From assembly GCF_000299395.1 (NCBI RefSeq), contig NC_018656.1, positions 930,001-994,000 of the forward strand: 64,000 nucleotides of DNA, in the 5' to 3' direction. The DNA is from Candidatus Nitrosopumilus sediminis (GTDB lineage Archaea; Thermoproteota; Nitrososphaeria; Nitrososphaerales; Nitrosopumilaceae). A model generated the notes under the pieces. The model was given only the letters and a program-made list of their open reading frames with translations, was not told where the DNA came from and ran no database searches. The position numbers and the translations under genes are program-made. Positions 35,082 to 63,880 of the stretch are shown piece by piece (the first letter of the stretch is position 1; the number at the start of each line of letters is the position of its first letter).

Positions 35082-35171
35082 CTAAACTCTTATACTGATT
35101 TTGGATTTTGCAGTAATTGCAACTATACTTAGTATTGCAATAGACAATACCATCATAGCAACTGTACCAAA
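35022..35171. repeat. 150-bp cassette: PEFG-CTERM tail plus terminator, copy 1 (partner 42975-43124)
   Basis: Nearly identical over about 150 bases to 42975-43124, offset exactly 7,953 bases, with very few changes. It covers the coding sequence of the PEFG sorting helix, the stop codon, the terminator hairpin and A/T-rich downstream DNA. Identity falls sharply upstream of the PEFG motif. Confidence 0.9.
35071..35091 (-). terminator. Hairpin-plus-T-run terminator overlapping a stop codon
   Basis: On the minus strand AAGAGT-TTAG-ACTCTT forms a 6-bp hairpin whose loop contains the stop codon, followed by seven T's. It ends the PEFG gene at 35082 and occurs in identical form at 43024-43044. Confidence 0.65.
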
Positions 35172-36821: not shown

Positions 36822-36922
36822 GTTAATTCAAGAAAGATGATTTAAAGAGTATGTGAATTCTTGGAATCTATTCTAAAAACATAGAATCATGTAAGATGAA
36901 ATTTTATTTAAAGTTCTAAACT

Positions 36923-39040: not shown

Positions 39041-41240
39041 CTTTTACGCCTCTAGATTTTCTCATGGATGCCAGTTGCTTTTCCTTGTTTGGCCTCAATA
39101 CAAGTACATATGATGATGCAAGCAAATAAACTCCTAACAATATTGTCTGGGCAACTACCGTTTCTAGTGTAGGATAAATTCCAGTCATTGCTGCAAGATT
39201 GATATCTAATCTTGGAATTATTCCTATCATACTAGTGTATGGAACAATATCCAATATCTGAAGTTCACGTATTGCGTTCCCTAAAAATGCAATTGAGAGA
39301 TATGCTCCAACTCCCATCGTTAATCCAAATAATGCACGCAGTGGTAATCGCTTTCCAAGTTTTCTCATTACAAAGTATAATCCAAAAAGTGATAAGATAC
39401 CTAGAACAAAACCTAGACCAACATAAAATTCCATATATTTTGCAAATCCAGACATTGCTTGATAAAATAAAACAGTTTCAAATCCTTCTCTATACACAGT
39501 AAAAAATGACAACATTACAAAAACCATAACGCTGCCAGTTGTCGTAGCCTGCCAAACCTTGGCTTTTACAAACTCCATCCATTTTTTATGTTCAATTTTA
39601 TTTAGTACCCAAAAACTCACGTAAAATAAAACAGCAGTTGCAGACAATGCGGCTATTGCTTCTATTAATTCTCGATTAGCTCCTGAAATTTCAATTATAT
39701 ATGATGCAATTATCCAAGTTATTGCAGTTGCTGCAAAAGCTGCAATCACACCATAGTAAATGTATTTTTTTAATTGATTGTGTCTTGATGCCTCAAGATA
39801 AGTCATGATTGCCCCAAGAATTAATACAGATTCTAATCCTTCTCTGAAAATAATTGCAAATGATGAAGTAAAAGCAATTGAAGGTGCCAAAGAACCCGTC
39901 CCACTAACCAATCTTTCAGATTCATCTAGATTTCTATTTATTGCAATTACAACCTCTCTGACTTTTCCCAAGTCTTCTTTTTTATCAATAAGATTTCGAA
40001 GTTCTGCAAATTGATATTCTACCTCCAAAGTAAAATCGGGGGCTATTGTTCTCAGAGGAATTTCTACAAACTCATAACTATCAAGATATGCTGTTCTTGC
40101 AGTAGCATATGCTGACTGAAAATCACCATTTTCATAAAAAATCACCACATCATCTAAAGAATCACGAATGAAATCAACTTCATTTCGAACAATAGATTTT
40201 GCTTCATCGGTGGAATCCCCCATCTTTTTGAGACCATCATCATTTGTTATCTCATTTTTAGTTAGGAGCAAGGGATTTGATGATAAATGCTCAGACACTA
40301 ACGATTCAGATTTGTTAAGATCTGGAATGATTTTTTCTTCTAAAAATTGCTTTATTTCATCAGGAGATTTGTTGTTTTTTATCATATCTCGTAAATTTTC
40401 ACGCATATCTATTTCAAGAGTATAAAGTAATTCTTTGTCTACCTTTTCAATTGCAGGTTCTAGATATTCAAAATTATCAAGATACGCAACTATTGCTTTT
40501 TCTTCAGCCACAACATAATTTCCTGCATCAATAGATTCAACAAGTTCATCATATAGAACATAGATGTTTTGATACAATTCGGATTGATCAAATGCAACTG
40601 TTTCAGTTCCAAGTACATCTTTTTGTATAACAGTAATCAAATTACCAACTTTGACAAAGTCCTCTCTTTTCTCAGTAAGACTGTTAAGTTCATTGAAAAA
40701 AGATTTAATTTCAAGATCAAGCCTATCATCAAAATTAGTTTCAGATAACATAGTTTCAGCTTTTTGAATTAATTTTAGTGAATATTGGTACGAGATTTCA
40801 TCGTTGTTTTGAATTCCAGTCTGATATTTCTCATCAGCAATAGATAATAAATTAACAATCACATAATCGGGCAAAGATTGATCATAAGGAACTTCTAGAA
40901 GCAAATTTTGGATTTTGTCGATCTCAAATAAAACATCGGTATCAGTATCAATTTTTGAATTTAGATCAAGTAATGAAATATGAATTTCGTCTACATGTTC
41001 ATACCCAGTGGTCCTTAGAATTTGGACATATTTACCAAAGATTTCTGAAGATAATGTAGAGTATTTTTTTGCGTCATCTAAATTATTAGATTTCAAACTG
41101 TCTCGAATTTGTTCTAGACCCAAAAAAGTGGAGTCTACAGCAGTTCTGATTGATGCAGAATCTTGTTCAGCGTATAAATCATCAATACAAGTTATACATG
41201 CAACAAAAACCAAAAAAACTATAATTATTCTAATTTTCAT
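39030..41240 (-). CDS. FTR1-family iron permease with large extracytoplasmic domain
   Basis: The start at ATG 41240 gives a proper signal peptide (M-K-I-R-I-I-I-V-F-L-V-F) and lies about 30 bases below a TATA element (+ strand 41267-41279); the ATG at 41330 does not fit. The first about 440 residues are a helical ectodomain with A-Y-L-D-N-F-E-Y-L-E-P and A-Y-L-D-S-Y-E-F-V-E. The seven-helix FTR1 domain has both R-E-G-L-E and R-E-G-F-E iron motifs. Likely Fe(III) uptake across the cytoplasmic membrane. Ectodomain modules recur in the PEFG proteins at 35082 and 43035. Confidence 0.92.
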   Translation of the reverse strand: MKIRIIIVFLVFVACITCIDDLYAEQDSASIRTAVDSTFLGLEQIRDSLKSNNLDDAKKYSTLSSEIFGKYVQILRTTGYEHVDEIHISLLDLNSKIDTDTDVLFEIDKIQNLLLEVPYDQSLPDYVIVNLLSIADEKYQTGIQNNDEISYQYSLKLIQKAETMLSETNFDDRLDLEIKSFFNELNSLTEKREDFVKVGNLITVIQKDVLGTETVAFDQSELYQNIYVLYDELVESIDAGNYVVAEEKAIVAYLDNFEYLEPAIEKVDKELLYTLEIDMRENLRDMIKNNKSPDEIKQFLEEKIIPDLNKSESLVSEHLSSNPLLLTKNEITNDDGLKKMGDSTDEAKSIVRNEVDFIRDSLDDVVIFYENGDFQSAYATARTAYLDSYEFVEIPLRTIAPDFTLEVEYQFAELRNLIDKKEDLGKVREVVIAINRNLDESERLVSGTGSLAPSIAFTSSFAIIFREGLESVLILGAIMTYLEASRHNQLKKYIYYGVIAAFAATAITWIIASYIIEISGANRELIEAIAALSATAVLFYVSFWVLNKIEHKKWMEFVKAKVWQATTTGSVMVFVMLSFFTVYREGFETVLFYQAMSGFAKYMEFYVGLGFVLGILSLFGLYFVMRKLGKRLPLRALFGLTMGVGAYLSIAFLGNAIRELQILDIVPYTSMIGIIPRLDINLAAMTGIYPTLETVVAQTILLGVYLLASSYVLVLRPNKEKQLASMRKSRGVKDVQ

Positions 41241-41412
41241 AAAGAACAAATCGAAAATGTCATAGAAGATATTTAAATTTCTGATTGATTCTACAGTCAT
41301 AGAATGAAATTGCTCTAAAATTTCTAGCACTTACATTGGTTCTAAAAGATGATTCCATACATTTGAAATAACTGATTTTTTTATTACTTTGTTTACGAGA
41401 AGTTGTTTTGCG

Positions 41413-41754
41413 ATGAAAAAAATGAGTCCAATACATGCAACAAAATTTGACATTAATCATAAGATCTTACATCTATTTTCAGACTTGGAATCAAGACATA
41501 TTTTATTTTCAATTATTAATAAATCAAAAAGTGTTCAAGAAATAACAAAAGAATTGAAAACGCCACTTAGTTCAACATATAAGAAAATTCAATCACTTGA
41601 AGAAAATGCATTAATTTCATCTGAATTAATATTTACAAATAATAGACATAAAGTTAAACTATATCAAAGCAGAATTATAGATGTAAATATCATCATTTCC
41701 AAATTTAAGCCCACAATCACATTTAAAAAAAATCTTAAAAATCAAAATGTCTAG
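41413..41754 (+). CDS. Small winged-helix regulator, 113 aa (paralog of 56189)
   Basis: M-K-K-M-S-P start, then F-D-I-N-H-K-I-L-H-L-F-S-D-L-E-S-R, a helix-turn-helix (V-Q-E-I-T-K-E-L-K-T-P-L-S-S-T-Y-K-K) and a wing. It is divergent from the FTR1 gene, so iron regulation is possible. The same architecture and key residues recur at 56189. The upstream ATG at 41389 gives an unlikely N-terminus and is rejected. Confidence 0.75.
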   Translation: MKKMSPIHATKFDINHKILHLFSDLESRHILFSIINKSKSVQEITKELKTPLSSTYKKIQSLEENALISSELIFTNNRHKVKLYQSRIIDVNIIISKFKPTITFKKNLKNQNV

Positions 41755-46877: not shown

Positions 46878-48611
46878 CTATCCTGCTCCTCCAAAAATAT
46901 TGTCAAGGCTAAGACTGAGTCCAGAAAAACTATCCATCATGACTACAGAAGCAATGGCTATTATCCCAATTACTACTACTCTCCAGGTATTGTAAAATGA
47001 AAAATCAATTGCTTTTGAAATTACAAATGCGGACAGCATGCTACTAGTTATGATCAAGGTTTTTGTCATTTCCATAAATTCAGGAGTAATAGTAACAAGG
47101 TTGGTAAAGTCAGTATTCATTCCAGGAATGCTACCAAATTTGTTTTCAATATTGCCAGATGGTGCAAGTAATGGGGATGACTCAAATGAATCCATAATGC
47201 CTAAGATCATGGTTGCTGTAAAGGCCATGATTACAGGTGCTGCAAAAATCACTATTGCAAGCATGGAAATCGAAGACTTGCCTTCTTTTACGACTTGTTT
47301 TGCAGTGGTGATAAATCTATTTACGGTTTCCAGGGTTCTGGGATTCCCACCGCCAAATTCGGCCACATATCCTAACAAGTAAAACGAAATTTTTGTAAAC
47401 CAAGAACGGAATTGAACAGATTTTACACTAGTGATTGGAGATATCCCATTGTCTAAAAGAATACTCACCTCACCAATTCGTTTATTGAAAATAGAATTGT
47501 ATAGATTTTCTTTTGACAGATGAATAATTGCAAGAATGACATCATATCCAATCTTTTTGTATTCGGTCATATCTCTGAGAAATTGTGGGAGCGATTGCTC
47601 AGAACTGTTGATTTCTTTTGTTTGTTTTCCAGTAATTATCGCACTAATAATAGAGGGAATTAATATTCCAAGAGATATGGCAATCCATGTTTGATTAGTA
47701 GCATAATACGTAAGAGAGCCAGAAATAATTCCTATTACTGTAAGCAGTATTGTTGTCCTTGGATGCAAACCTAGCTTGTTAAAACTTGCAGGCTGCATTG
47801 AAGATATTGCAACGCCCATAACTATAGCAAAGATTGGAATTCCCACAGTTGCAAGAAGGGTTACTTGTTCCATCGAGCTTCCTGGAAGGACAAAAGATGA
47901 AACCATAATCATTATTGGTAAAATTATCAATAACGTTACTAGAACTTCTACAATTGTTCCCACACTGTTTGTATATGCTTGATATCTGTCTTTAAGATTT
48001 GTAAAAAATTCCTCAGCACGGGATTCCAGATATAGTGAAAGGTCTCCGCCACTTCTCCATATGCTAGTATATCCTAAAAGCAAGTTTTTGAATTGATCAC
48101 TTTTGTGGGTTCTGCCTAATTCTTCTAGTGCCTCCATTTGAGAAATTCCAAACTGATCAACATTTCTTTTTAGGAGTAATGCCTCTTTTCCAATTGATTT
48201 GAATAATCCAGTTTGACTAAACAATTGAAAACTATCATACAACCCAACTCCTACATTTTGTAGAACTGATGAAAAGATTACAAACGAAGGGAGCTCCTCT
48301 TCGACTTTTTTCTTTCTCTCTTTGCTTAAGCTTGATTGCTGAATCTTAGGATATGCAAAAATCAGGACAGATACCAAATTAAGTGCAAGAAAAATCGGAG
48401 AAAACATAACATAAAGAAATACGCTTACAGGAGCCATAATTATTGCAGAAATAATAATTGATTTTCTTATTCTTTCAAGAAAAACTAGAGTATCAAGAGG
48501 TTTTCCTGAAAATAGCACATCATTGTTAATATCCTCAAAGACCGAATTCCATGCAGACTTTATGTTTAATTTTGATGTTGATGTACTCTCTTCCTGAATT
48601 TTTTGACTCAT
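46878..48611 (-). CDS. Type IV pilus/T2SS platform protein (TadC/FlaJ-like)
   Basis: 577 aa, with two T2SSF-type units. Hydrophobic bundles lie at about 50-85, 215-325, 425-455 and 510-565. Conserved cores include L-P-S-F-V-I-F-S-S-V-L-Q and S-L-P-Q-F-L-R-D-M-T-E-Y. It anchors pilus assembly in the membrane and pairs with the ATPase at 50783. It is the first gene of the long minus-strand operon to 43035, and is divergent from the pilin at 48670. Confidence 0.88.
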   Translation of the reverse strand: MSQKIQEESTSTSKLNIKSAWNSVFEDINNDVLFSGKPLDTLVFLERIRKSIIISAIIMAPVSVFLYVMFSPIFLALNLVSVLIFAYPKIQQSSLSKERKKKVEEELPSFVIFSSVLQNVGVGLYDSFQLFSQTGLFKSIGKEALLLKRNVDQFGISQMEALEELGRTHKSDQFKNLLLGYTSIWRSGGDLSLYLESRAEEFFTNLKDRYQAYTNSVGTIVEVLVTLLIILPIMIMVSSFVLPGSSMEQVTLLATVGIPIFAIVMGVAISSMQPASFNKLGLHPRTTILLTVIGIISGSLTYYATNQTWIAISLGILIPSIISAIITGKQTKEINSSEQSLPQFLRDMTEYKKIGYDVILAIIHLSKENLYNSIFNKRIGEVSILLDNGISPITSVKSVQFRSWFTKISFYLLGYVAEFGGGNPRTLETVNRFITTAKQVVKEGKSSISMLAIVIFAAPVIMAFTATMILGIMDSFESSPLLAPSGNIENKFGSIPGMNTDFTNLVTITPEFMEMTKTLIITSSMLSAFVISKAIDFSFYNTWRVVVIGIIAIASVVMMDSFSGLSLSLDNIFGGAG

Positions 48612-48669: not shown

Positions 48670-49671
48670 ATGACAAACAACAAACAAAAAAAGACATTCG
48701 CACTCCAAAGACGTCGTGCCATTAGCCCTATTCTAGCAGTAGTAGTACTGCTTGGAATTACTGTTGTTGCAGGTGGAATTGTGTTTTCACTCTTCTCAAC
48801 TTCTGCAACTACTGCAAGTGGTGCTGATGTGATTGGAATTCAGAATGCTCAAGCTGTCAAGGGATCTAGTCATGCAGACATGACAATGACTGTGAAAAAT
48901 GCAGGATCTCAGCCATGGACATCAATAGAAATGACTGTTTCAAAATCTGAGCTTAGTGAGCCTATTCTCTATGAATCATTACATGAAAATGTAGTTGGAT
49001 GTAAAACCACTCCAGGAGTATCTTGGGATGGCAAATCATGTCCAGGGGTTGGAAATGGAGGAAGTGAAGGTGAGCCAGCTGGAAACAGAGATAATCCTCT
49101 GAGAGCACAATGGCTCATTTCACTAGATAAAAGCTCTTCAGGTGCAGGTAGTTCCAGAACTGATGGAGAGGCTGATAAAGGTGAAGGTGCCGCAGTTGGA
49201 AGAAAACTAGTCTTTCAAAGTAAAGACGATCTAAGAACAATTCAAGTTTTGAATGGTACAGCAGTTGCAACCTTATTTGGCGGAAAGAATCCTTCAAATA
49301 GTGCCACATATGGCGGAAATATTGATTCTGCAGATAAGTGTACTCCAGGAACTGGTTCATATGCAGATTGTTCAGCAACATTCAAAGCATTAGATCCAAG
49401 TACAAAGGGATTCATAAGTTGTAAAACAGTTCCAGATGATGACGATGTTGCAGCAGAATGCAAAGTGTTTACACATACAAACATCAAAGATTCCCCAATA
49501 GGTACAGGCCAATCAATATACTTCTATGCAGATGTATTGACACAGGAAATTCCTGGACTTGACAATCAAATTGTCAGAGTAGGAGATAACCTAGTTGTCA
49601 ATATATCAACAGAGAATGCTGATGGCGGTACTGCAAGAGTACAATCAGTCATAAAAGTAACGGGAATTTAA
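48670..49671 (+). CDS. Major type IV pilin/archaellin-like protein, 333 aa
   Basis: M-T-N-N-K-Q-K-K-T-F-A-L-Q-R-R-R-A-I-S-P is a class III leader; a hydrophobic helix rich in V, I and G follows. The ectodomain is Gly/Ser-rich and large, with six or more cysteines (for example G-C-K-T-T, K-C-T-P and S-C-K-T) that may form disulfides. Likely the main filament subunit. Downstream A/T-rich DNA leads into the gene at 49708. Confidence 0.82.
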   Translation: MTNNKQKKTFALQRRRAISPILAVVVLLGITVVAGGIVFSLFSTSATTASGADVIGIQNAQAVKGSSHADMTMTVKNAGSQPWTSIEMTVSKSELSEPILYESLHENVVGCKTTPGVSWDGKSCPGVGNGGSEGEPAGNRDNPLRAQWLISLDKSSSGAGSSRTDGEADKGEGAAVGRKLVFQSKDDLRTIQVLNGTAVATLFGGKNPSNSATYGGNIDSADKCTPGTGSYADCSATFKALDPSTKGFISCKTVPDDDDVAAECKVFTHTNIKDSPIGTGQSIYFYADVLTQEIPGLDNQIVRVGDNLVVNISTENADGGTARVQSVIKVTGI

Positions 49672-49707: not shown

Positions 49708-50832
49708 ATGAATCTAAAAATTCTCTTTATTCTCATAGGATTTTTTCTAATTCTACCCATCAATTTTGTTCATGCTGAAGTCATTCATGAGAATCTGGGA
49801 ATTATTAATGAGTTGTTGGTTTCAGAAGAGAAATCTGACTTGTATTTTTTTGAATTAGATCAAAACATTAGTTCACAAACTTGGATTCATGATACAAAAA
49901 TAATGTATGGCAATGAAAATACAATAAGCAAAATTTCTGATGATTTGTTTATTTTTCCAACAGAAATTAATGAGATAGGAGACTATCTTATATTTGCCAC
50001 ATTATCTGAAGAATGTGTAGGAAATACAATTTGTGATTTTCAAGATGTTATTAAAATGTCAAAAAAAGATGGGAGTTATCAGAAAATAATACATCAATTA
50101 AAGTCAGCTATCCACATTTCAGTGGAAGGTGAACAAATCTATCTAAGTGAATCAAATGGAAAAATTTGGAAATTCTTCAAAGATGGAAGTGACAAACAAC
50201 TAGTCTATCAAGGGAATAATATTATCATGGACATTACAGTACAAAATGATAAAGTCTATTGGATTGAAGAAATATCTGAGCAAAACAGCATCATAATGAT
50301 GCTAAAAGATGGAATAGTAACGAAAATAGCAGAAAACCTCCAAATTCCATATAATTTAGCACATGACGATGACTCTATTTTCTGGAATGAAATACGAATA
50401 GGAGCAAAAAGTGGAAAGGTAACAGAATTTACTAAATTTACTTTGTATAATGGAGATAAAATTAAAACAGTTTCTGAATATGATAACAAGACGCCTCTTT
50501 CTTCTTTTTCAAAGCCTGTTTACGGACCATACTCTTTCTTGGGAAATTTCCTTTTCATTGCAAACAATACCTCTGACAAATCTACAATTCATCTACTAGA
50601 CTATAAGACAGATCAAAATTTTGAACTTGAAACAATTTCCAACTATGATGTACGATATTTTAGAAACAGTTTTGATTCGTTGTATGTCCTTGGACAAAAC
50701 CAAGATGGTTTTTTGATAGAAAAACTGCCTTTACCCGTAACGGTTCCAGAATTCTCAACAGTTATGATATTCTTTTCAGTGACTACAGGTCTAAGTTTGA
50801 TAATTGCTTCTCAGAAACTTTTTCATTACTGA
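49708..50832 (+). CDS. Secreted beta-propeller-like protein with PEFS sorting-like tail
   Basis: 374 aa with a signal peptide (F-F-L-I-L-P-I-N-F-V-H-A). Repeated K-D-G and W/Y-containing blades (V-Y-W-I-E, I-F-W-N-E) indicate a beta-propeller. The C-terminus V-P-E-F-S-T-V-M-I-F-F resembles the PEFG-CTERM tail with Ser for Gly. Its last 50 bases overlap the convergent ATPase gene. Confidence 0.78.
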   Translation: MNLKILFILIGFFLILPINFVHAEVIHENLGIINELLVSEEKSDLYFFELDQNISSQTWIHDTKIMYGNENTISKISDDLFIFPTEINEIGDYLIFATLSEECVGNTICDFQDVIKMSKKDGSYQKIIHQLKSAIHISVEGEQIYLSESNGKIWKFFKDGSDKQLVYQGNNIIMDITVQNDKVYWIEEISEQNSIIMMLKDGIVTKIAENLQIPYNLAHDDDSIFWNEIRIGAKSGKVTEFTKFTLYNGDKIKTVSEYDNKTPLSSFSKPVYGPYSFLGNFLFIANNTSDKSTIHLLDYKTDQNFELETISNYDVRYFRNSFDSLYVLGQNQDGFLIEKLPLPVTVPEFSTVMIFFSVTTGLSLIIASQKLFHY

Positions 50833-52462
50833 ATTCACCCAAGGATTTTGTTGAAAGCACAGAAATATATCGTTCCAACGGATCATTATAGAACTTCTCT
50901 ATCTCTTGTTTAACTTTATCAAATTCAATGATGTCATTTTGTACCATTCTATTAAGAAAACACACTCTTGTGATTAATTGATTGACAAGTTCATTTTTTG
51001 TCCATCCATTTATCATGGAAATCTCTTTTAGTCTCTCAGATCTTTTTACAAGTTCTTCTACATCCTCAGGAAAAAACTGCATAGCTGCTGCATTCCACCC
51101 CATAACTGGTTTTAATTCTATTGTGTTTTCTTTTGGTATGATCTCAGTAATTTGAGTAACTTTTCTTACAATTTTTCCATCTGGTGAAACAAGTCTATTC
51201 TGTTGTAAAATACTAGAAATTAGCATCTGACCACTTAGATGAACATTCATCGGAGGGCTTTGCATTCTTACTAAAGTAGCACTTGCATCGGATGCATGAA
51301 AACTAGTCAATCCTCCGTGTCCCGTAGCCACTGCCTGAATAAGTGATGAGATTTCTTCACCCCTTACCTCTCCTACAACAATATAGTCAGGACGTGAACG
51401 TAATGACAGTCGTACTAGTTCATTCATAGAAACCTCATATTTATCAGAAAATATGCTAGAGCCCTTTCTTGTAATAAGACGCTGCCAGTGAACATGCCCC
51501 ATTCTCAATTCAGGAGTATCTTCGATTGTTGTTATTTTCATATGAGGATTAATCAACGAAGTCAATGCCCCAATAGTCGTGGTTTTTCCAGCAGCAGTAG
51601 ACCCAATTAGGAGGACAAAAGCTTTAGAATCTAGCAATGTCCATACATATGCTGCCATCAGTGGACTGATAGTTCCCATTTGCAATAGTTTTGTGATAGT
51701 AAGTGGTTTTTTGGTAAACTTTCGTATTGTGAAATTCGGTCCAGGAAGAGAAACTTCTTTTCCAAATGTAGCTGCAATTCTATGCCCTTCTTTTGTCATA
51801 CTGTCAATGTATGGGACTGCAGCAGTCATGCTTTTTCCAGTTTTTTGGACAAGTTTTTGGACAAAGGAATTCGTAGACTCTACAGAATCAAAAGTAATGT
51901 TAGTATCAAGAATATTATATTCACCAAATTTTTTGTGAATTATCCCAATTGGTTTGTCAAAACTCTCTTCTAGAATATCTTCTAAATTTTCATCTTTCAT
52001 CAATACGTCGATAATGCCATAACCAAATGCATCTCTCATCACATAGTATAACAGAGTATCAATAATTGGGATGACATGTTTTTCTAATTTCATCTTTTTC
52101 CCAATTTCTATGACTTTCTTTTTTAGATAGATTCTTGTGGATTGATCATTTTCAATTTCAGAAGGTAGCGAAATGTAAAGAAACCTCATAATTTTTGTAT
52201 ATAGTGCCTTTCCCACATTATCTATTTGTGGTTCATCAATCAGATAATGCATCTTACCTTTCTTGTCTTTGCATATGTAGATCTTACATGCACCTACATC
52301 ATAATTTGCAAAAATTTCATAATCAGAAATATTTGGCACTGAAAGATTGAATAGTTGAAAGACAAATTTTGACTTTGATTTAGGATCTTCAGAAGGGGCA
52401 AAAAATGATGAAATTTTTTCAAAGATAGAGTTTCCACTCTCGTTAAAATTTGATTTTCCCAT
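50783..52462 (-). CDS. Type IV pilus/archaellum secretion ATPase (VirB11/FlaI/TadA family)
   Basis: 559 aa. Walker A is G-S-T-A-A-G-K-T-T-T, Walker B I-V-V-G-E-V-R-G-E-E and the His box G-H-G-G-L-T-S-F-H-A. The N-terminal about 200 residues are the usual accessory domain. It powers pilin extrusion with the platform at 46878. It overlaps the propeller gene convergently by 50 bases. Confidence 0.93.
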   Translation of the reverse strand: MGKSNFNESGNSIFEKISSFFAPSEDPKSKSKFVFQLFNLSVPNISDYEIFANYDVGACKIYICKDKKGKMHYLIDEPQIDNVGKALYTKIMRFLYISLPSEIENDQSTRIYLKKKVIEIGKKMKLEKHVIPIIDTLLYYVMRDAFGYGIIDVLMKDENLEDILEESFDKPIGIIHKKFGEYNILDTNITFDSVESTNSFVQKLVQKTGKSMTAAVPYIDSMTKEGHRIAATFGKEVSLPGPNFTIRKFTKKPLTITKLLQMGTISPLMAAYVWTLLDSKAFVLLIGSTAAGKTTTIGALTSLINPHMKITTIEDTPELRMGHVHWQRLITRKGSSIFSDKYEVSMNELVRLSLRSRPDYIVVGEVRGEEISSLIQAVATGHGGLTSFHASDASATLVRMQSPPMNVHLSGQMLISSILQQNRLVSPDGKIVRKVTQITEIIPKENTIELKPVMGWNAAAMQFFPEDVEELVKRSERLKEISMINGWTKNELVNQLITRVCFLNRMVQNDIIEFDKVKQEIEKFYNDPLERYISVLSTKSLGEFSNEKVSEKQLSNLDL

Positions 52463-52524
52463 CTTTTCTCAACTAGAACAGTTTTCTTTTACTTATATGC
52501 AAAATTTTTAGGTTTAATAGGTTG

Positions 52525-52989
52525 ATGAGGACTAGACGAGCAATTTCTCCAATACTCGCAGTGATAATTCTAATGACTATTGCAACTATGGGGGGAGGGA
52601 TTTTGTTTGGAATTCAGAATCAGATTCTTGTAACTGGCCTATCTAAAATTGATCTTAGAGTGGTTGATTTGAGACTAGAAAAGGATATGAGCGGTTCGTG
52701 TTATCTTCAAACTGCATTTTATAATTCAGGGACTGAATTGATACAGAAAATTCATCTCAAAACAACATTAGATGATGGTGAAGACTTTGTTAGAGAGATT
52801 GATAATTTTGGAGGAATATTAGTACCTGGAGATACTGCTGAAAGTTTTGAAATGATTGAGTTTTCAGATTTCCAGTGTGGAAATTTTACTACATCAAAAA
52901 CATATTCTGTATTTGTAAATGCATCATCAAATGATTCAAAATTTAGCACACTTCAAACTATGAAAGTGGAGAATGTAACAAAGACATGA
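52525..52989 (+). CDS. Minor pilin, 154 aa
   Basis: M-R-T-R-R-A-I-S-P-I-L-A-V-I-I-L is a class III leader. ATG 52525 is preferred over the TTG at 52522. The short ectodomain has C-Y-L-Q and Q-C-G-N cysteines. Its TGA overlaps the ATG of the next pilin (ATGA). Divergent from the ATPase gene. Confidence 0.8.
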   Translation: MRTRRAISPILAVIILMTIATMGGGILFGIQNQILVTGLSKIDLRVVDLRLEKDMSGSCYLQTAFYNSGTELIQKIHLKTTLDDGEDFVREIDNFGGILVPGDTAESFEMIEFSDFQCGNFTTSKTYSVFVNASSNDSKFSTLQTMKVENVTKT

Positions 52990-53462
52990 ACAGGCGAGCA
53001 GTGAGTGAGATTATTAGTGCTGTAATAGTCATTACAGTTGTTGTAGCAGGACTTGGAATCTATACTGGCCTTTCTCAACAAAGAATTTTAGGCGATACTC
53101 TTTCTGTAAAAGAAACAATTGAACAGCAAAATAATAGAATTTCAGAAATGCTTGAGCATTTAGATATGTTTGTGTATAATATAGCAGATGAAGAGGTAGG
53201 AATTTTTGTACATAACTCTGGGTTCAAAAATATTACAATGTCTCAGCTAATTGTTAATGGAACCGTTGCAGAAAGTCCAAGTAATTTTTATGTTCGAGAC
53301 CTTTCAGGCTTGGACATAGCTCCTGACAATAAAACAATCCCAGTAAGAAAAACAAGTGAAATTGTATTAGATTATGATGGAACTAGTATTACCAATATTG
53401 CCAATATTGTAATCAGAACAGAATCAGGTAAAATCATTCAGATTACAAATAACACTGATTGA
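52986..53462 (+). CDS. Minor pilin, 158 aa
   Basis: M-N-R-R-A-V-S-E-I-I-S-A-V-I-V-I-T-V is a class III leader with the pilin Glu at position +5 after the likely cleavage. The C-terminal domain is beta-rich, cysteine-free. Translationally coupled to the pilin at 52525. Confidence 0.82.
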   Translation: MNRRAVSEIISAVIVITVVVAGLGIYTGLSQQRILGDTLSVKETIEQQNNRISEMLEHLDMFVYNIADEEVGIFVHNSGFKNITMSQLIVNGTVAESPSNFYVRDLSGLDIAPDNKTIPVRKTSEIVLDYDGTSITNIANIVIRTESGKIIQITNNTD

Positions 53463-53546
53463 GACTTTCTTCCAGACTATTTTCAAGTATCATGAATGGA
53501 CATATTTTTTAAAATACATTAAAACATGATATCATGTTATCTCGTT

Positions 53547-54149
53547 CTATACTTTTAGATTGTATTCTTGAATTTTCTCTTCAGGTTCTTTTAGCAACAA
53601 ATCTATCTGATCTCTATTTTCTATACGATTTTCGTTAATTTCCAGCCACAATTTCCCATGATCAGTCAAAACACAGTATTTTGGATGATATTTTCTTCCA
53701 GATGAATTGACCCTCTTAATTCTAGAATGATAGCTTATGAGCATATTTTTTTCCTCCAATCTTTGCAAAATTGCGTAGATATTTTTGGGAGGTTTTTGGA
53801 AAAACGTACTCAAAAACTGCAATGAAGACTTTTCAGTTTTTCCTAAAACATAGATAATGGATTTTCCAAGTTTTCCGAGCTTTATTTCATCCATCTCTTT
53901 TAGAATTTTTACATATTCTTTGCTGATGTTAATTTTAGGCAAATCGATATTTTTTATTGCATGTTTTTCCACTGAGAAATCTTTGCTATTGGACATCAAG
54001 CCTTTTATTTTAAGTGAATGAGTGATTGTATCTATTCTTCCTTTCTTTTTGGTAATAATTGTAAATATATCGTTGAGTTGTTTATCATTAATTTTTGGAT
54101 ATTTTTTTAGAATGGCAAGTACTGTTTTTTCACTATCCCCCAATTTCAT
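53547..54149 (-). CDS. Tandem winged-helix regulator (PadR-like), 200 aa
   Basis: Two winged-helix units: residues about 1-55, and about 95-180 with K-N-I-Y-A-I-L-Q-R-L-E-E-K-N-M as recognition helix and V-L-T-D-H-G-K-L-W wing, the PadR end pattern. It overlaps the ParB-like gene by 17 bases. It may regulate the convergent pilus genes just beside it (inference). Confidence 0.75.
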   Translation of the reverse strand: MKLGDSEKTVLAILKKYPKINDKQLNDIFTIITKKKGRIDTITHSLKIKGLMSNSKDFSVEKHAIKNIDLPKINISKEYVKILKEMDEIKLGKLGKSIIYVLGKTEKSSLQFLSTFFQKPPKNIYAILQRLEEKNMLISYHSRIKRVNSSGRKYHPKYCVLTDHGKLWLEINENRIENRDQIDLLLKEPEEKIQEYNLKV

Positions 54150-55095
54150 CAGGAATTGCCTCTGTTAAAACTACATTTACTTCTAATTTTGCATCTCTGA
54201 TCAATCTAACTAGTTCTTCTTTTGAATAGAATTTTGAAGAAAATACATGGGAATTATTATTGTTTTCAAATTTTTTCTTAATGATTATGTTATTTTGTTC
54301 AATGTATTCATATGCAGTATTATTTTTTGTGTTGATATCAAACTTTAAACCACATCTGCAGGTTAATGGGAATTCTTTCACTTTTGTATGAGGGGATCTT
54401 TTTTTGTATGTCTTTTTTTGTTTTGTTTCTGAAATCTTTTCGATTTCCTCTAACACTTCCACTACACTTGGAATGGAAACTAATGTTTCATCAGCAGGAC
54501 CATACATGATATCTCTAAAAATCCAGTCTACCACTCGTGTTTGTTTTTCTGAAGAAAGATCTGAAATATTAGCAAGATGTTCAGGTGTTATTTGGTTTAG
54601 AATGAATTGATATTTTTTTTTAGAATTTTCCAATATTTTGCTTATGACTGATTTTGTATCATCATGCAAATTTCTAATTTTTAACAAAGTTGAAACATAT
54701 TTTTTGTTGACCCCATATTCCAGTGCTATTTCATCAACGTCAGAGCCTGACTGTATCTCTTCATAGAACATGTCTGAAAGTAAGAGAGGGTTGGAGTAAC
54801 CTTCTTTATTCATTTTAAAAGAGGCAATCCTCAGATCATGGAGATTTTGAATATTTGTCAATAATTGACAGGTGATGTGTTTTTCCCCTGTTTTCTTTGC
54901 AGCCCGAATACGAGAATGCCCGTCTATTATGTAGAATTTTTTCTTAATCTGTGCAATTATTGGGCAAGGTATTGATTCAACCCCATTATTTTTTATTGAT
55001 TCGGCAAGGGACTCAAAATCTCGCTGATACATCAATCTAAAATGCCATGGATTTTCATGGAGTCTGTGGATGTCTAGTTTTTTCATTGATTTCAT
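54133..55095 (-). CDS. ParB/sulfiredoxin-like domain protein with HTH, 320 aa
   Basis: The N-terminal ParB-N domain (about 10-100) has I-D-G-H-S-R-I-R-A-A-K-K-T-G, the nucleotide (CTP)-loop position. A KorB/ParB-type helix-turn-helix follows (I-A-L-E-Y-G-V-N-K-K-Y-V-S). The C-terminus has a lone C-R-C-G pair. Such proteins bind DNA sites and slide as CTP clamps, or act as transcription cofactors. No ParA partner is seen. Overlaps the TFB-like gene by 4 bases (ATGA). Confidence 0.8.
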   Translation of the reverse strand: MKSMKKLDIHRLHENPWHFRLMYQRDFESLAESIKNNGVESIPCPIIAQIKKKFYIIDGHSRIRAAKKTGEKHITCQLLTNIQNLHDLRIASFKMNKEGYSNPLLLSDMFYEEIQSGSDVDEIALEYGVNKKYVSTLLKIRNLHDDTKSVISKILENSKKKYQFILNQITPEHLANISDLSSEKQTRVVDWIFRDIMYGPADETLVSIPSVVEVLEEIEKISETKQKKTYKKRSPHTKVKEFPLTCRCGLKFDINTKNNTAYEYIEQNNIIIKKKFENNNNSHVFSSKFYSKEELVRLIRDAKLEVNVVLTEAIPDEIGG

Positions 55096-55754
55096 GCCAA
55101 AATTTCCCTAATCTTTGGTTTCATGATGCTCGTAGTACTGTTGAGAATTGCTTCTTTTGCAGATGAACTGGCATCGGTATGAATATTACGTAACAGTTTA
55201 TGCGAGCGTGTTCTAATGGTTTCAAAATACTCATCTCCAGCTTCTTGGGTTATGACGTTTTGAATTTTAGCTAGATAAGCTTGGTGATAATGATATTTGT
55301 TTAATGATGAAATTGAAAATTTTTCTTCGTTAATTTTTTTTGAAATCTTGTTCAATGATCTTAGTAATGATTTTTCGGATCGTCTTACTTTTTTGCCAGA
55401 ACTATTTTCTAATTCTAAAAAAATATCTTCTAAAAGTCGAGGTATTTCATGTATTCTACATGCATATATGGTTGCAAAAAGCATGGCATGTTTTTTTGAA
55501 ATATTTTTTTTACGTAGTTTAATTGATGTTTGAATAATTGTTTGAATTGCAAATTGTGGGAGGTTTAGATTTTTTGCCATTTTTGATGCAATAAAGTAAT
55601 ACTCTGAAAAGCCAAACATTCCGATATTGTGACTATTTTTGTCATTTATGCTTGCGACTTCATTGTAACCTAAAACTCGTCCACAGTCTTTACAGACTTG
55701 CTCACCTTCAATTTCAGTAATCTTGTGTTTGCATGTGGCAATAGTTAGTGACAT
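55092..55754 (-). CDS. Shortened TFB-like protein, 220 aa
   Basis: The zinc ribbon has C-K-H and C-K-D-C-G; the His may replace a Cys. It is followed by a single well-preserved cyclin-like unit (about 50-150, A-M-L-F-A-T-I-Y-A-C-R-I-H) and a divergent second. It is far shorter than the 300-aa TFBs at 928 and 7698 and lacks their B-finger motif, so it may bind DNA/TBP without supporting normal initiation. First gene of a TFB-ParB-wHTH operon. Confidence 0.82.
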   Translation of the reverse strand: MSLTIATCKHKITEIEGEQVCKDCGRVLGYNEVASINDKNSHNIGMFGFSEYYFIASKMAKNLNLPQFAIQTIIQTSIKLRKKNISKKHAMLFATIYACRIHEIPRLLEDIFLELENSSGKKVRRSEKSLLRSLNKISKKINEEKFSISSLNKYHYHQAYLAKIQNVITQEAGDEYFETIRTRSHKLLRNIHTDASSSAKEAILNSTTSIMKPKIREILA

Positions 55755-55755
55755 T

Positions 55756-55771
55756 ATTAGGTATACCTAAT
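55756..55771. promoter_or_regulatory. 16-bp perfect palindrome at the start of the TFB-ParB-wHTH operon
   Basis: ATTAGGTATACCTAAT is self-complementary and sits 1 base before the ATG at 55752-55754. A TATA-like TTTTAAAT (minus strand, near 55780-55788) places the transcription start inside the palindrome. A protein bound there would block initiation, so it is a likely operator, perhaps autoregulatory. Confidence 0.6.
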
Positions 55772-56188: not shown

Positions 56189-56518
56189 ATGAAAAAATTA
56201 AGTCATTCTCAAATTAAAAGATACGATATTAATCAAAAATTAATTCAAGAGTTAACAGATTTACAGTCCAGATTGATAATATTTTCAATTATAACTCATG
56301 CTCAATCTATTGCATATATTTCAAGAATTACTAAAATACCATTAAGCACCGTGTATCAAAAATTAAAAAATCTTGAAGAGATATCTTTGGTTTTTGTTGA
56401 AAAAAATGTGCTTGAGGAAGGCCACAAAATAAAATATTATAAAAGTAGAGTAAAAGGAATTGAAATTTCTATTTCAAAACATGAACCCAAAATAATTTTA
56501 ATCAAAAACAAGATCTAA
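56189..56518 (+). CDS. Small winged-helix regulator, 109 aa (paralog of 41413)
   Basis: M-K-K-L-S-H, Y-D-I-N-Q-K-L-I-Q-E-L-T-D-L-Q-S-R and a helix-turn-helix (I-P-L-S-T-V-Y-Q-K-L-K-N-L-E-E). The match to 41413 covers the whole length, including K-Y-Y-K-S-R versus L-Y-Q-S-R. It lies between the TFB operon and the M-K-T gene chain. Target unknown. Confidence 0.75.
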   Translation: MKKLSHSQIKRYDINQKLIQELTDLQSRLIIFSIITHAQSIAYISRITKIPLSTVYQKLKNLEEISLVFVEKNVLEEGHKIKYYKSRVKGIEISISKHEPKIILIKNKI

Positions 56519-59844: not shown

Positions 59845-60465
59845 TCAATTTTGGTCTACAACAATAACACTACACATAAGAAATTGATTGATAGTTCCAA
59901 CAAAATTTCTTATTTCAGAGTAATCAAAAACATATTGTTTGTTATTATGAACAATATCATGTCTTATGTCAAATATTTTTAAAAAAACATCCCAATTTTT
60001 GTGAAATGGATTTGTGTATTTTATGTGAGCATACTCATAAGAATAACCATCAGCATATTGAACAGATTCATCCTTTATTTCTGCCAAATAATCATCTACA
60101 CCCAACAATACAGAAAAAACAGTATTCACATCATCCAAGTTCATAAAACTGAATGAAGATATTATTTGATCAGATATAGTTGCATTAGTTTGGATTTGTG
60201 AGAATAACTGCCTAGATTTTCGATTTCTTTTAGATTTTCTATAAGCTTGATTTAAAAGAAAAGTTTCAAACATAGATACTGCTTTAACAATAAGATGATT
60301 AGAAAGGGCAATTCTAACTTTATCATTTTTTTTACGTGATTTGATTTCTTCTAAAATCGGAATGACTTCTTTTTCAGTGTATATTCTTAAACGGGGATAT
60401 AATTTTTCATTAAAAAGGGCATTTTTCTTTCGTTTAGAAAATGTACCGCGTCTTTTGTCTACCAT
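59845..60465 (-). CDS. HEPN-domain protein, probable RNase
   Basis: 206 aa, all-helical. The motif R168-H-D-I-V-H173-N fits the Rx4-6H active site of HEPN ribonucleases; A-V-S-M-F-E-T-F-L is the typical first helix. Such proteins cleave RNA in toxin, CRISPR and abortive-infection systems. It overlaps the nuclease-like gene by 7 bases, so the two are coupled. No MNT antitoxin neighbour is seen; control would come from the upstream GTPase/GAP1 genes (inference). Confidence 0.78.
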   Translation of the reverse strand: MVDKRRGTFSKRKKNALFNEKLYPRLRIYTEKEVIPILEEIKSRKKNDKVRIALSNHLIVKAVSMFETFLLNQAYRKSKRNRKSRQLFSQIQTNATISDQIISSFSFMNLDDVNTVFSVLLGVDDYLAEIKDESVQYADGYSYEYAHIKYTNPFHKNWDVFLKIFDIRHDIVHNNKQYVFDYSEIRNFVGTINQFLMCSVIVVDQN

Positions 60466-61100
60466 ATCACGATATTTTTCCTTCTTGTATTAGTTGAACC
60501 CCAAATATCAGTAGTTTTCTTTTTTCTATGGGATTTTTTCTTTGTAATTTTTCTTTGGTTAGTTTTCTTTTTAGTTTTTGTAGAACCGAAGATTGAATCC
60601 ATAGAACTGTTAGAACCCCATATACTATCAGATTTCTTTTTAGTAGATTTCTTTTTTGTAATAGATTTTTTCTTAGTTTTCTTTTTTGCTTCAAAATCAT
60701 CACTCCAAAAACTAACATTTCCAAATCCAAGAGAACTTGAACGGTCTTTTTTCTTTCTTTTCTTGGACTTGTCAGACTCTCGATTGTTTGACACTAATCC
60801 TAAAAGGGTAGGCTCAAGACGTTCTACCACATATTTTTTACCTAAGTAACCTCGTTTTTTCTTTTGAAGTTTAGATAGTTTTGAATTTCCAGTTTTAACT
60901 TCAATGTATTTCGTTTCTTTTTTCCCAGTCAACCAATCTTTTTTTTCTGCCTTTAGATCATGACCTTTTCCGGTTCGTTTTACTTTGTAGCCTGAAAATT
61001 CGTACTCTTCTTTGATTCTTCTTTCTCCTATTTTTCCTTGTTCTTGATTTTCTCGGTTTACTTGTTTTCTACTTTTTTTGAATGTGTCAAAGAATCCCAA
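60459..61100 (-). CDS. PD-(D/E)xK nuclease-like protein with Lys-rich motif tail
   Basis: 213 aa. The N-terminal 85 residues have the restriction-endonuclease core: G-E-R (E26), G-H-D48-L, then I-E67-V-K69-T-G-N-S and L-Q-K. The C-terminal 100 residues are disordered and Lys-rich, with repeated D-S-I-W-G-S / D-S-I-F-G-S / D-I-W-G-S peptides that may bind a partner. Fits a DNA-cutting effector of a conflict operon. Coupled to the HEPN gene. Confidence 0.78.
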   Translation of the reverse strand: MGFFDTFKKSRKQVNRENQEQGKIGERRIKEEYEFSGYKVKRTGKGHDLKAEKKDWLTGKKETKYIEVKTGNSKLSKLQKKKRGYLGKKYVVERLEPTLLGLVSNNRESDKSKKRKKKDRSSSLGFGNVSFWSDDFEAKKKTKKKSITKKKSTKKKSDSIWGSNSSMDSIFGSTKTKKKTNQRKITKKKSHRKKKTTDIWGSTNTRRKNIVIW

Positions 61101-61104
61101 TAAA

Positions 61105-61218
61105 TTATCTATATGAGTATGAACTTAAGCATATTGATTGTTTTGCCACGTCGCCTTTTACTCTACCAATCAACCTTTCAACTTCCTTGTCAGAAAATAT
61201 TACAAATTGATTTTCCAA
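61105..61218 (-). CDS. Possible 37-aa ORF between GAP1-like and nuclease genes
   Basis: TTG-started; V-I-F-S-D-K-E-V-E-R-L-I-G-R-V-K-G-D-V reads like protein, and the strand matches the operon. No ATG is available, so start and reality are uncertain; it may be the eroded end of a larger gene. Confidence 0.25.
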   Translation of the reverse strand: MENQFVIFSDKEVERLIGRVKGDVAKQSICLSSYSYR

Positions 61219-61279
61219 ATAGGAATTAATGTCATCTAATTAGTAAAAATATTCTAATTAAATCAAAATTTCATTGGTT

Positions 61280-63088
61280 TTAAGACCATGGCCACCACAA
61301 TTTAAAGGGATTAAATACAATATTTGGTTCAGATTCTTTTTTATTCGTTTTTTTAGTCATTTTGATTGATTGTAGTTTTTTCATAAGAGATTTTCGTTCT
61401 AAAAGAATTGTAGAGTATTTTTTCTTAAGACTGGGAGTGAATTCAGTTGTTCTATATTCTTTAACATATCCTAAACAATGTAGAAGGTTAGTCAACATAT
61501 CATTAGAATATGTTTTAAATTTAGAAAAATTTTCAGAGGATGTCCACTCAAGACTTTTATTTTTTGATGCTCGTGTATTTTTCATTATGTGATTTTTTAT
61601 TTCTAAAATTAAATTTTCTGTAAATGAAAGAAGTGTTTTTGGAGGTACATTATTCCTAAATTCATGATTGTTTAAGGAACTATGAAGAATATTTTTAGTC
61701 TTTTCAATCTCATCGATTGAATCAAATTTGATTTTGAAATTAAGTAATGCATCATTTAAGAAAATTGGATCGACCCCTGAAGAATTAGATAAAATTTTTT
61801 CAATAATATTTGATAGCAGTTTTTTCTTCCAATATGGAGGATTTTTGATAAAAATAAGTAAAAGAGATTTCAGATTTTTATATTGAAAGAAAGATTTGAT
61901 GAATTCATCAGCATAGTCTGAATCATTAATATCTTCTAGAAAATCATAAAAGTTATTCTTTATTTCTTTATTTTTCAATTTCACTATTTTATTAATGAAA
62001 GTTTTTTTGAGTTCATATTCATCAGTTCGTTTTAATGCATTTTCAATTAGTTTAACATTTAGTGGGGATTCAATGATTTCTTGTAGAATTTCACCTGTTT
62101 CTATTTGATCTAATAGATTTTTATTATTTGATTTCATACAATACTGTTTAGCTTTTTTAAGATAATCTAATGTTAAAGAAGAATCTATTTTTTTAGTTGT
62201 TTTTGCACATTCTAATAAATAAATAGAAATTTTTTCTGGGTCAGTTGTATTTTGAGATAAATTTTCATAGTTAATCAATTTCATTGCTTCATAGGTAGAT
62301 AGCTCATGCATATTCATTATTTTTTCATGAAATTGTTTTATTCCAGATTCATTTTTTTCTATAACTAAATTTGCAATATATTGAAAATCCAATATTGGAA
62401 AATTCAATTTTTTCTTATATCCAATGATATTTTTTATTGGTATTATTGTCCATTTTTTGCTAAATTCAATATCAGGTGGGGATTGAATTATGTCATATTC
62501 ATTCTGACGTTTAGGTTCAAATACATGAGAAGAAAAAGAAACTAATCGTAAAGATTCAGGCAAAACCATCAAAATATTCTGAATTAAATCATAGTGATCA
62601 AATCCGATTATTGCTGTTTTTTTTGCTTGTGTAATTGAATTCAACAGATGAGATAAAATATTTTCATCAAGATTACTAAAGACATCGAAATTAATTTTTT
62701 TAGAACTTGGTTTAAGTTGAATTTTATCTAAAATTCCATGTGATTTTACATTTAAAGTAAAATAATCATCTAAATTTCTTGAATCAAATCCTAATTTTTC
62801 AAATTCATCTTGATTTAAAATAAATGTATGATTATAGAGAGTTCCTCGTCTTCCATCATAACCAACTCCTATATTCTTTACGATACTATACGCAATTTTG
62901 TGATTATCAAGTAATACTAAGCTTCTAGATTCTTCAAATTTTTCAATATTCGTACCTATTGGATAAAGATAGCCAGCTAGTTGAGAAACTATTTGTGGTG
63001 TTATACCTTCACTTTGTGCAATTATTTGATAGCCTTCTTTTTCAGGCGTCTTAGCTGCAGTGTAGATAAATTGTTCACATTCTAACAA
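61280..63088 (-). CDS. GAP1-like GTPase-associated protein, 602 aa
   Basis: The N-terminal about 150 residues have the pattern E-Q-F-I-Y, G-Y-Q-I-I-A-Q-S-E-G, R-S-L-V-L-L and D-G-R-R-G-T-L-Y-N-H-T, matching (from memory) the GTPase-associated protein 1 family of predicted NTP-dependent conflict systems. The remaining 450 residues are helical repeats. It starts 3 bases after the GTPase stop, as in other GAP1/double-GTPase operons. Probably couples GTPase state to effectors (inference). Confidence 0.72.
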   Translation of the reverse strand: MLECEQFIYTAAKTPEKEGYQIIAQSEGITPQIVSQLAGYLYPIGTNIEKFEESRSLVLLDNHKIAYSIVKNIGVGYDGRRGTLYNHTFILNQDEFEKLGFDSRNLDDYFTLNVKSHGILDKIQLKPSSKKINFDVFSNLDENILSHLLNSITQAKKTAIIGFDHYDLIQNILMVLPESLRLVSFSSHVFEPKRQNEYDIIQSPPDIEFSKKWTIIPIKNIIGYKKKLNFPILDFQYIANLVIEKNESGIKQFHEKIMNMHELSTYEAMKLINYENLSQNTTDPEKISIYLLECAKTTKKIDSSLTLDYLKKAKQYCMKSNNKNLLDQIETGEILQEIIESPLNVKLIENALKRTDEYELKKTFINKIVKLKNKEIKNNFYDFLEDINDSDYADEFIKSFFQYKNLKSLLLIFIKNPPYWKKKLLSNIIEKILSNSSGVDPIFLNDALLNFKIKFDSIDEIEKTKNILHSSLNNHEFRNNVPPKTLLSFTENLILEIKNHIMKNTRASKNKSLEWTSSENFSKFKTYSNDMLTNLLHCLGYVKEYRTTEFTPSLKKKYSTILLERKSLMKKLQSIKMTKKTNKKESEPNIVFNPFKLWWPWS

Positions 63089-63091
63089 GAG

Positions 63092-63880
63092 TTACTCTTT
63101 TAATTTTTGATCTAACCAAGAAATAAAGTTAACATATTCATCCTCACTATACGATAATGGGACTTTAACTTGGAATGTTTTTTGTATATCAGTAGTTGTA
63201 GTTTCTGATGTAGTTTTTGGTGTAGCTTCTGGTGTAGCTTCTGGTGTAGCTTCTGGTGTAGCTTCTGGTGTAGCTTCTAAATTTGAGGAATTTGGTTCTA
63301 TAGTAATTTCTACTGGTTTGTTATCTGCTCCTCGTTCAACATCAAGAAATACTTTGAAATATGCTATGTTGCCAGAAATGGATTTTATTTGACTGTGTAA
63401 AGCAGGCATGTGTTCATTTAATAATTCTTCAGGGTTTTTAACACGATTACTTTCATCTAATAAATCACATTTTGTAAACATGATTGAAATTGGATTTGTA
63501 ATTTTGTTATTATTTGCTTCACCTGTTAATTCTTTAAGTTTCAGTAAATTATTTAGAAGTTGCATGTAATCAAATGATAATTCTTCCCAATTTTTAAAAT
63601 CTTCACAATCAATTAGTATTGCATAGGCTTTTGAAAAAATCAGAAAGCTAAACGGCCCATACAGATAACCTTTTTGTTTTTCATGATTTAATATTCTATC
63701 TCTTAATCCATCAGAGGATAATTCTTTTGATAACAAATATTTTTGTAATTCTCCAGATATGTCATTAAATTTTAATGAAATTGTACCACCACTTGGTTGT
63801 TGGGTGAGTAACATTTCCACACGATCAATATCGGATTCTTCAGTTCTAGAAGGAAATTTACCATTTTTTAATGAAAGCAT
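63092..63880 (-). CDS. P-loop GTPase (DO-GTPase2-like), C-terminal part after a frameshift
   Basis: 262 aa containing the G3-like D-I-S-G-E (Asp40-Gly43), G4-like F-T-K-C-D-L-L, and an E-A-T-P repeat linker before the last strand. It lacks the P-loop, which is in the overlapping frame at 63868-64000. Adding one A to the seven-A run at 63882-63888 would restore one protein continuing through M-K-K-N-M-L-S-L. The ATG at 63880 is therefore probably internal. Confidence 0.78.
   Translation of the reverse strand: MLSLKNGKFPSRTEESDIDRVEMLLTQQPSGGTISLKFNDISGELQKYLLSKELSSDGLRDRILNHEKQKGYLYGPFSFLIFSKAYAILIDCEDFKNWEELSFDYMQLLNNLLKLKELTGEANNNKITNPISIMFTKCDLLDESNRVKNPEELLNEHMPALHSQIKSISGNIAYFKVFLDVERGADNKPVEITIEPNSSNLEATPEATPEATPEATPEATPKTTSETTTTDIQKTFQVKVPLSYSEDEYVNFISWLDQKLKE
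63219..63278 (-). repeat. 12-bp tandem repeat coding E-A-T-P, five units
   Basis: The + strand unit GGTGTAGCTTCT repeats five times, flanked by partial units. It encodes a flexible linker between the GTPase core and its C-terminal segment. A likely copy-number-variable site. Confidence 0.9.

Follow-up and report, generated by a model that had tools for sequence, protein, structure and literature searches.

Introduction

Among the regulators predicted in archaeal pilus loci, TFIIB homologs are the most frequent (Makarova et al. 2016, PMC4858521). In thaumarchaeal integrative-conjugative elements, a TFIIB homolog lies directly upstream of a ParB-like gene, and the available part of the account by Krupovic et al. 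(2019, PMC6563490) considers this coupling element-specific. TFB3 of Sulfolobus, which binds polymerase and is without a DNA-binding domain, is proposed to help drive the ups pili, and its recruitment to the ups pilus promoters by another regulator has also been proposed (PMC5817253, PMC7289017, in the parts available). KorB, a ParB-fold clamp, acts with the helix-turn-helix protein KorA on the conjugative plasmid RK2 (PMC11790492), the ParB protein of NAH7 activates transfer genes (PMC12421886), and AspA-ParB-ParA of pNOB8 pairs a small DNA-binding partner with an upstream palindrome (PMC5120986). A 2025 survey of the ParB fold makes no mention of TFB or TFIIB (PMC12704722).

Here, we describe a TFB-ParB-winged-helix operon beside a type IV pilus locus in a window of 64,000 nucleotides (the whole stretch of DNA that was analysed), part of a 1.69-Mb single-contig genome. 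Its three overlapping genes are conserved together and are co-inherited with the adjacent pilus.

Organization of the locus

An earlier note on this DNA described three overlapping genes behind a palindrome, and both the open reading frames and the palindrome were found where it had placed them (Table 1). The overlaps taken from the list of open reading frames are exact, with 4 bases between the TFB-like and ParB-like genes and 17 bases between the ParB-like and winged-helix genes. The coupling of a TFB relative to a ParB-type protein suggested in that note is borne out, as translational coupling to a ParB-fold protein.

Table 1. Features of the operon and the neighbouring pilus locus, in positions of the window.
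Feature	Coordinates	Strand	Remarks
Pilus platform protein (T2SSF, PilC/TadC-like)	46878..48611	-	
Pilin-like gene 1	48670..49671	+	weak Pilin_N match
Pilus ATPase (T2SSE, PilB-like)	50783..52462	-	
Pilin-like gene 2	52522..52989	+	type IV pilus locus
Pilin-like gene 3	52986..53462	+	adjacent type IV pilus locus
3' palindrome AACATGATATCATGTT	53523..53538	.	after winged-helix gene, between convergent genes
Tandem winged-helix gene	53547..54149	-	200 aa; PadR-like below threshold
ParB-fold gene	54133..55095	-	320 aa; ParB_N + helix-turn-helix region ~residues 1-225, C-terminal beta region
TFB-like gene	55092..55754	-	220 aa; CxH...CxxC zinc ribbon, 39-residue linker, second cyclin-like lobe shortened
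5' palindrome ATTAGGTATACCTAAT	55756..55771	.	perfect, 16 bp, two bases before TFB start codon
Small TrmB-like winged-helix gene	56189..56518	+	divergent from TFB operon

The TFB-like protein

By sequence, the TFB-like protein was weakly matched (zinc ribbon at E = 0.012 in Pfam, PRK00423 at E = 0.001). The best PDB matches of its model in the fold search were TFIIB in initiation complexes, and hhalign tied it to longer relatives. The model covers the TFIIB core (1vol, TM 0.59, 3.6 Å) with a short second lobe, and PF00382 gave no match. A full loss of the second cyclin repeat, read from an alignment, was withdrawn because the fold search matched both TFIIB lobes.

Relatives of the operon were classified into types, of which type A is that of the window. 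The zinc ribbon (Cys-His...CxxC, a weak Pfam match) is present in six of the seven type A TFB-like proteins; the copy in G091 has no zinc-ribbon histidine. From the ribbon to the first cyclin fold there are 39 residues in type A, 52-62 in most other types, or 85, and the gap is shortened in the module TFBs of every type measured, to a varying extent. The window genome encodes about ten canonical TFBs, in which the same stretch spans 98-100 residues, measured in this genome where the motif could be placed. So short a stretch means that the B-reader/B-linker is missing from the module TFBs, a feature that appears to be described nowhere before. Without a B-reader, the TFB-like protein would therefore be unable to replace TFB. 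The shortened TFB of the earlier note is thus upheld, by a weak sequence match but also by a TFIIB-like model, the hhalign links and the 39-residue linker.

Loss of the B-reader in the module TFBs would also suit a decoy, that is, a TFB that occupies TBP and promoters or the polymerase dock, cannot open DNA, and together with the ParB clamp and the winged-helix protein silences pilus and conjugation genes. We regard this as unlikely. Most members retain the zinc ribbon, a general-factor fold is not obviously needed by a repressor, and TFB3, the best-studied truncated TFB, is an activator in the available parts of its description.

The ParB-fold protein

ParB_N scored above the Pfam cut-off in the second protein (27.8 vs. 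26.3 bits). Its model, of moderate confidence (pLDDT 62), matched Spo0J, KorB, Noc and ParB in Foldseek, with the helix-turn-helix region included, and the profile of its family matched Noc at E = 3e-19 as well as ParB, and KorB more weakly. Profile and fold searches thus agree on the ParB-N/HTH assignment made earlier. The fold and gene context of the module appear to fit the KorB-KorA pattern, and the RK2 precedent (PMC11790492), with KorB among the Foldseek matches, is a further point in favor of silencing by a decoy. The C-terminus of the protein carries a remnant zinc-knuckle (CRCG); that of the type E ParB (L036/L035) has two CxxC knuckles and is zinc ribbon-like. Diverse ParB proteins gave an alignment too variable to use.

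The ENxxR motif of ParB (P-motif) handles CTP/Mg. Examination of the CTP residues showed that GxxR (C-motif) is kept in the window protein (DGHSR, G59 and R62) but ENxxR is lost (aligned residues KMNKE), which makes ordinary CTP hydrolysis unlikely and leaves the label "CTP-clamp-type", given to the protein earlier, in doubt.

The ParA-type Walker motif KGGxGKT was absent from the window, its right flank and every compared module locus, in agreement with the earlier claim of a ParB without ParA. This argues against the operon being a remnant of a mobile element that stayed next to the pilus locus, a partition or maintenance module of ParB and accessory DNA-binding proteins with the palindromes as centromere-like sites. 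We consider that origin improbable, notwithstanding pNOB8 AspA-ParB-ParA, whose DNA-binding partner is likewise small and which has a palindrome upstream (PMC5120986). A ParB search of viral contigs returned no relative of the type A ParB. We know of no role of a TFB in partition, a further point against such a module.

The third protein

Aligned by hhalign, one half of the third protein matches the other as a winged helix (probability 92%), so that its earlier description as a tandem winged-helix protein stands; its placement in the PadR family does not, with a match below the Pfam gathering score (21.3 vs. 27 bits). The third genes of types C, H and I are mutually homologous, and those of types B, D and J more weakly so (hhalign). 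Between the type A third gene and those of other types, hhalign gave only a weak winged-helix match, and homology was not demonstrable. By this comparison, the type A gene is predicted to be a winged helix separate from the third genes of other types.

Distribution of the trio

ParB relatives were collected from the window's order (Nitrososphaerales). In 33 of 33 typed loci, the gene immediately upstream of ParB is TFB-like; this sample is biased by having been found via the ParB protein itself. The third gene follows in most of these loci, typically with a 4-base overlap; a further locus (L097) has a TFB-ParB pair without it. All three genes reappear in this order, as a rule overlapping, across families of Nitrososphaerales and in further families within the phylum, and because they do so in many genomes the operon is more than a chance arrangement. 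The TFB and ParB genes were linked in all relatives found, as the conserved linkage proposed earlier would have it. By hhalign, the TFBs and ParBs are homologous across nearly all types, with the weakest links for type J and type G TFBs. The generic ParB-like genes that these searches also returned mostly have no TFB neighbor; for one of them (L049), a canonical TFB is 155 bp away.

Beyond the order, other families of the phylum yielded eleven TFB-ParB pairs, ten of them analysed with a third gene and several in one genome. The TFBs of these outgroup trios have linkers of 57-63 residues. In L189-L201, two small conserved membrane proteins are encoded after the trio, one of them VirB2/CedA1-like by eye, and in some of these loci an integrase follows; they are probably conjugative elements. 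Another module type, in L040:8241-12425 and L041:1347-5525, has a prepilin peptidase gene and an actin-like (MreB/ALP) gene after the trio.

The contexts of the module include VirB4 (type D, 3/3), prepilin peptidase (C, H), actin-like genes (C, I), pilin-like genes (G), archaellum-like genes (F, by eye) and integrases (outgroup loci). The conjugative-type contexts among them would suit a partition module, as would a tyrosine recombinase ~12 kb beyond the operon. Between the two, adjoining the operon, is a stretch with GAP1-N2, DO-GTPase1 and a weak HEPN match; together with the recombinase (59848-63880 in the window, and L103:4030-5217) it is likely a defence or integration island.

Linkage to the type IV pilus

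Type A occurs in seven genomes, from the window's own genus, Nitrosotenuis and one other family. PilB, PilC and pilin-like genes stand beside it in all seven, in the same arrangement and with the operon convergent with the pilin genes, and this linkage is held across two families down to ~40% protein identity. No VirB4 was found in the seven type A loci, nor in the window and 20 kb to its right, and the reading of the window locus as a conjugative element is disfavored on that ground. The absence of VirB4 and the tracking of the pilus in 7/7 genomes also count against a partition module. A PilB search of 400 genomes returned, below E = 1e-160, only the seven type A genomes and G263, which has a related pilus (51% PilB) and no module nearby.

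Pairwise identities of PilB, PilC and pilin covary with those of TFB, ParB and the winged-helix protein (r 0.89-0.99, computed without an independent control gene and partly reflecting shared ancestry). The window PilB is 65% identical to that of Nitrosotenuis and 59% to that of the same-genus genome G034, and for all pilus and module proteins the window locus is at least as near to Nitrosotenuis as to G034. The pilus and module therefore appear to have moved together as one block. The earlier suggestion of a tie to the adjacent pilus locus is strengthened by the presence of type A beside pilus genes in every one of its genomes and by their co-divergence.

The operon could also have hitch-hiked, controlling only itself or unrelated genes and being carried along with the pilus locus in one transferred block. 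The related pilus of G263, which does without the module, is in keeping with this. Hitch-hiking nevertheless seems very unlikely given a fixed convergent arrangement with the pilin genes in 7/7 genomes of two families, to ~40% protein identity, and given that other module types also stand beside filament or secretion genes.

Several further genes surround the pilus locus. Its neighbors at 35085-41330 include imelysin (M75), hydantoinase A and FTR1 iron permease-like genes, and genes similar to this set flank the pilus locus in Nitrosotenuis G160 (L088). Two paralogous small winged-helix genes (41389-41754 and the weakly TrmB-like gene at 56189-56518) bracket the pilus region, with copies near the locus in G013, G034 and G160; the TrmB-like gene adjoins the operon in G013 and is ~3 kb off in G034.

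Palindromes and candidate operators

Six of the seven type A loci carry a TTAG-N4-5-CCTAA element (N5 in the window core) no more than ~20 nt from the TFB start; the same-genus locus of G034 has no such operator at the start site. Exact TTAGGNNNNCCTAA occurs once in the whole 1.69-Mb genome, and in ~122 kb of own-genome DNA the sole match to the operator pattern was the TFB-start site, read on both strands. A single exact occurrence favors local autoregulation over segregation, and the palindrome at 55756-55771 is a candidate autoregulatory operator. It spans the operon's start region, where a repressor would be expected to bind, which is in line with the decoy. Palindromes near the TFB starts of other module types showed no consistent occurrence.

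The 3' palindrome is also single-copy in the genome. It shares 17 identical nt with the Nitrosotenuis locus, and shuffling both intergenic regions 3000 times never gave more than 14. Repeated parS-like sites were thus not found in a test covering these two palindromes, and their single copies argue for local control and not for a chromosomal centromere, a further difficulty for a partition module.

A genome-wide TTAGG regulon was rejected, as there was one exact match and one-mismatch matches were fewer than with the reversed-pattern control. The TTAGG operator was not found at the pilin promoters, and the case for control of the pilin genes therefore rests on linkage and co-inheritance. Its confinement to the operon's own start also fits an operon that merely travels with the pilus. 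The two pilin promoters themselves (48637 and 52493, + strand) share a TATA-like TTATAW-N2-3-AAAT element, of which most of the seven type A loci have a similar form, and three of the five hits to this pattern in ~122 kb of own DNA fall at the pilin promoters.

A proposed transcription switch

We propose that the trio is a dedicated, autoregulated transcription switch for the neighboring type IV pilus, a reading based on sequence and analogy to which we give about an even chance. The winged-helix protein, possibly with the ParB protein, would bind the palindrome at the operon start and shut the operon down. The ParB-fold protein would hold the complex on DNA near the locus in a KorB-like manner, probably without normal CTP hydrolysis. 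The TFB-like protein, with its polymerase-docking zinc ribbon and cyclin core kept, may act in trans as a polymerase-tethering partner, a role modeled on that of TFB3 proposed for Sulfolobus pilus genes. DNA specificity would come from the ParB and winged-helix proteins and polymerase contact from the TFB-like protein, and the net effect would be local switching of the pilus genes. Between the two directions of control, we tentatively prefer activation to repression. The local switch is favored because its composition resembles the mechanisms of TFB3 and KorB/KorA, and of the NAH7 ParB.

A wider and more tentative version, in which we place distinctly less than even confidence, is that a TFB without B-reader forms the polymerase-contacting subunit of a stable TFB-ParB-winged-helix complex, a Thermoproteota-wide switch for filament and DNA-transfer loci. 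If true, a DNA-clamp regulator built around a basal factor would be an archaeal regulatory principle not seen before. How promoters are chosen with many TFB paralogs in archaea is an old open question. A B-reader-less TFB, a ParB-fold protein, a winged helix and a unique conserved operator together make a small testable system, one that would bring basal factors together with ParB-type clamps and with surface filaments or DNA transfer.

Comparison with known systems

The likeness to AspA-ParB-ParA of Sulfolobus pNOB8 lies in a small DNA-binding protein with ParB, overlapping genes and an upstream palindrome; pNOB8 differs in having ParA, no TFB, another gene order and a partition function. RK2 KorB-KorA likewise joins a ParB-fold protein and an HTH partner in regulating conjugative-plasmid genes, and the window ParB fold matches KorB. 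However, that system is bacterial, its KorB is an active CTPase and it includes no general factor, whereas the window protein is without ENxxR. Sulfolobus TFB3, likened here by its description, is a reduced TFB paralog linked to pilus (ups) activation in trans, but in the parts available it has no DNA-binding domain, is damage-induced and has no ParB partner described. The TFIIB homologs of archaeal pilus loci, single-cyclin ones in Thermoproteales included, share with the window TFB a place as predicted regulators at a pilus (PMC4858521); unlike at the window locus, "ParB" is absent from the main text of that study.

The thaumarchaeal TFIIB-ParB pairs resemble the window operon in having TFB upstream of ParB, likely in an operon, near pilus or secretion genes (PMC6563490, in the part available). 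They make the earlier statement that no system of this composition had been described too strong. No description of the TFB-ParB-winged-helix trio was found in the literature outside subscription papers. As described there, those pairs are confined to conjugative elements, whereas the window locus is without VirB4 and lies in a type IV pilus locus. The available part of the Krupovic account makes no mention of a winged-helix third gene, a lineage with a non-conjugative pilus, a wider range, B-reader loss or operators. The module extends TFIIB-ParB coupling beyond conjugative elements and beyond Nitrososphaerales. What appears new is that a third gene is regularly present, that one lineage goes with a non-conjugative pilus, that the module occurs outside the order, that the B-reader is missing and that the candidate operators are conserved.
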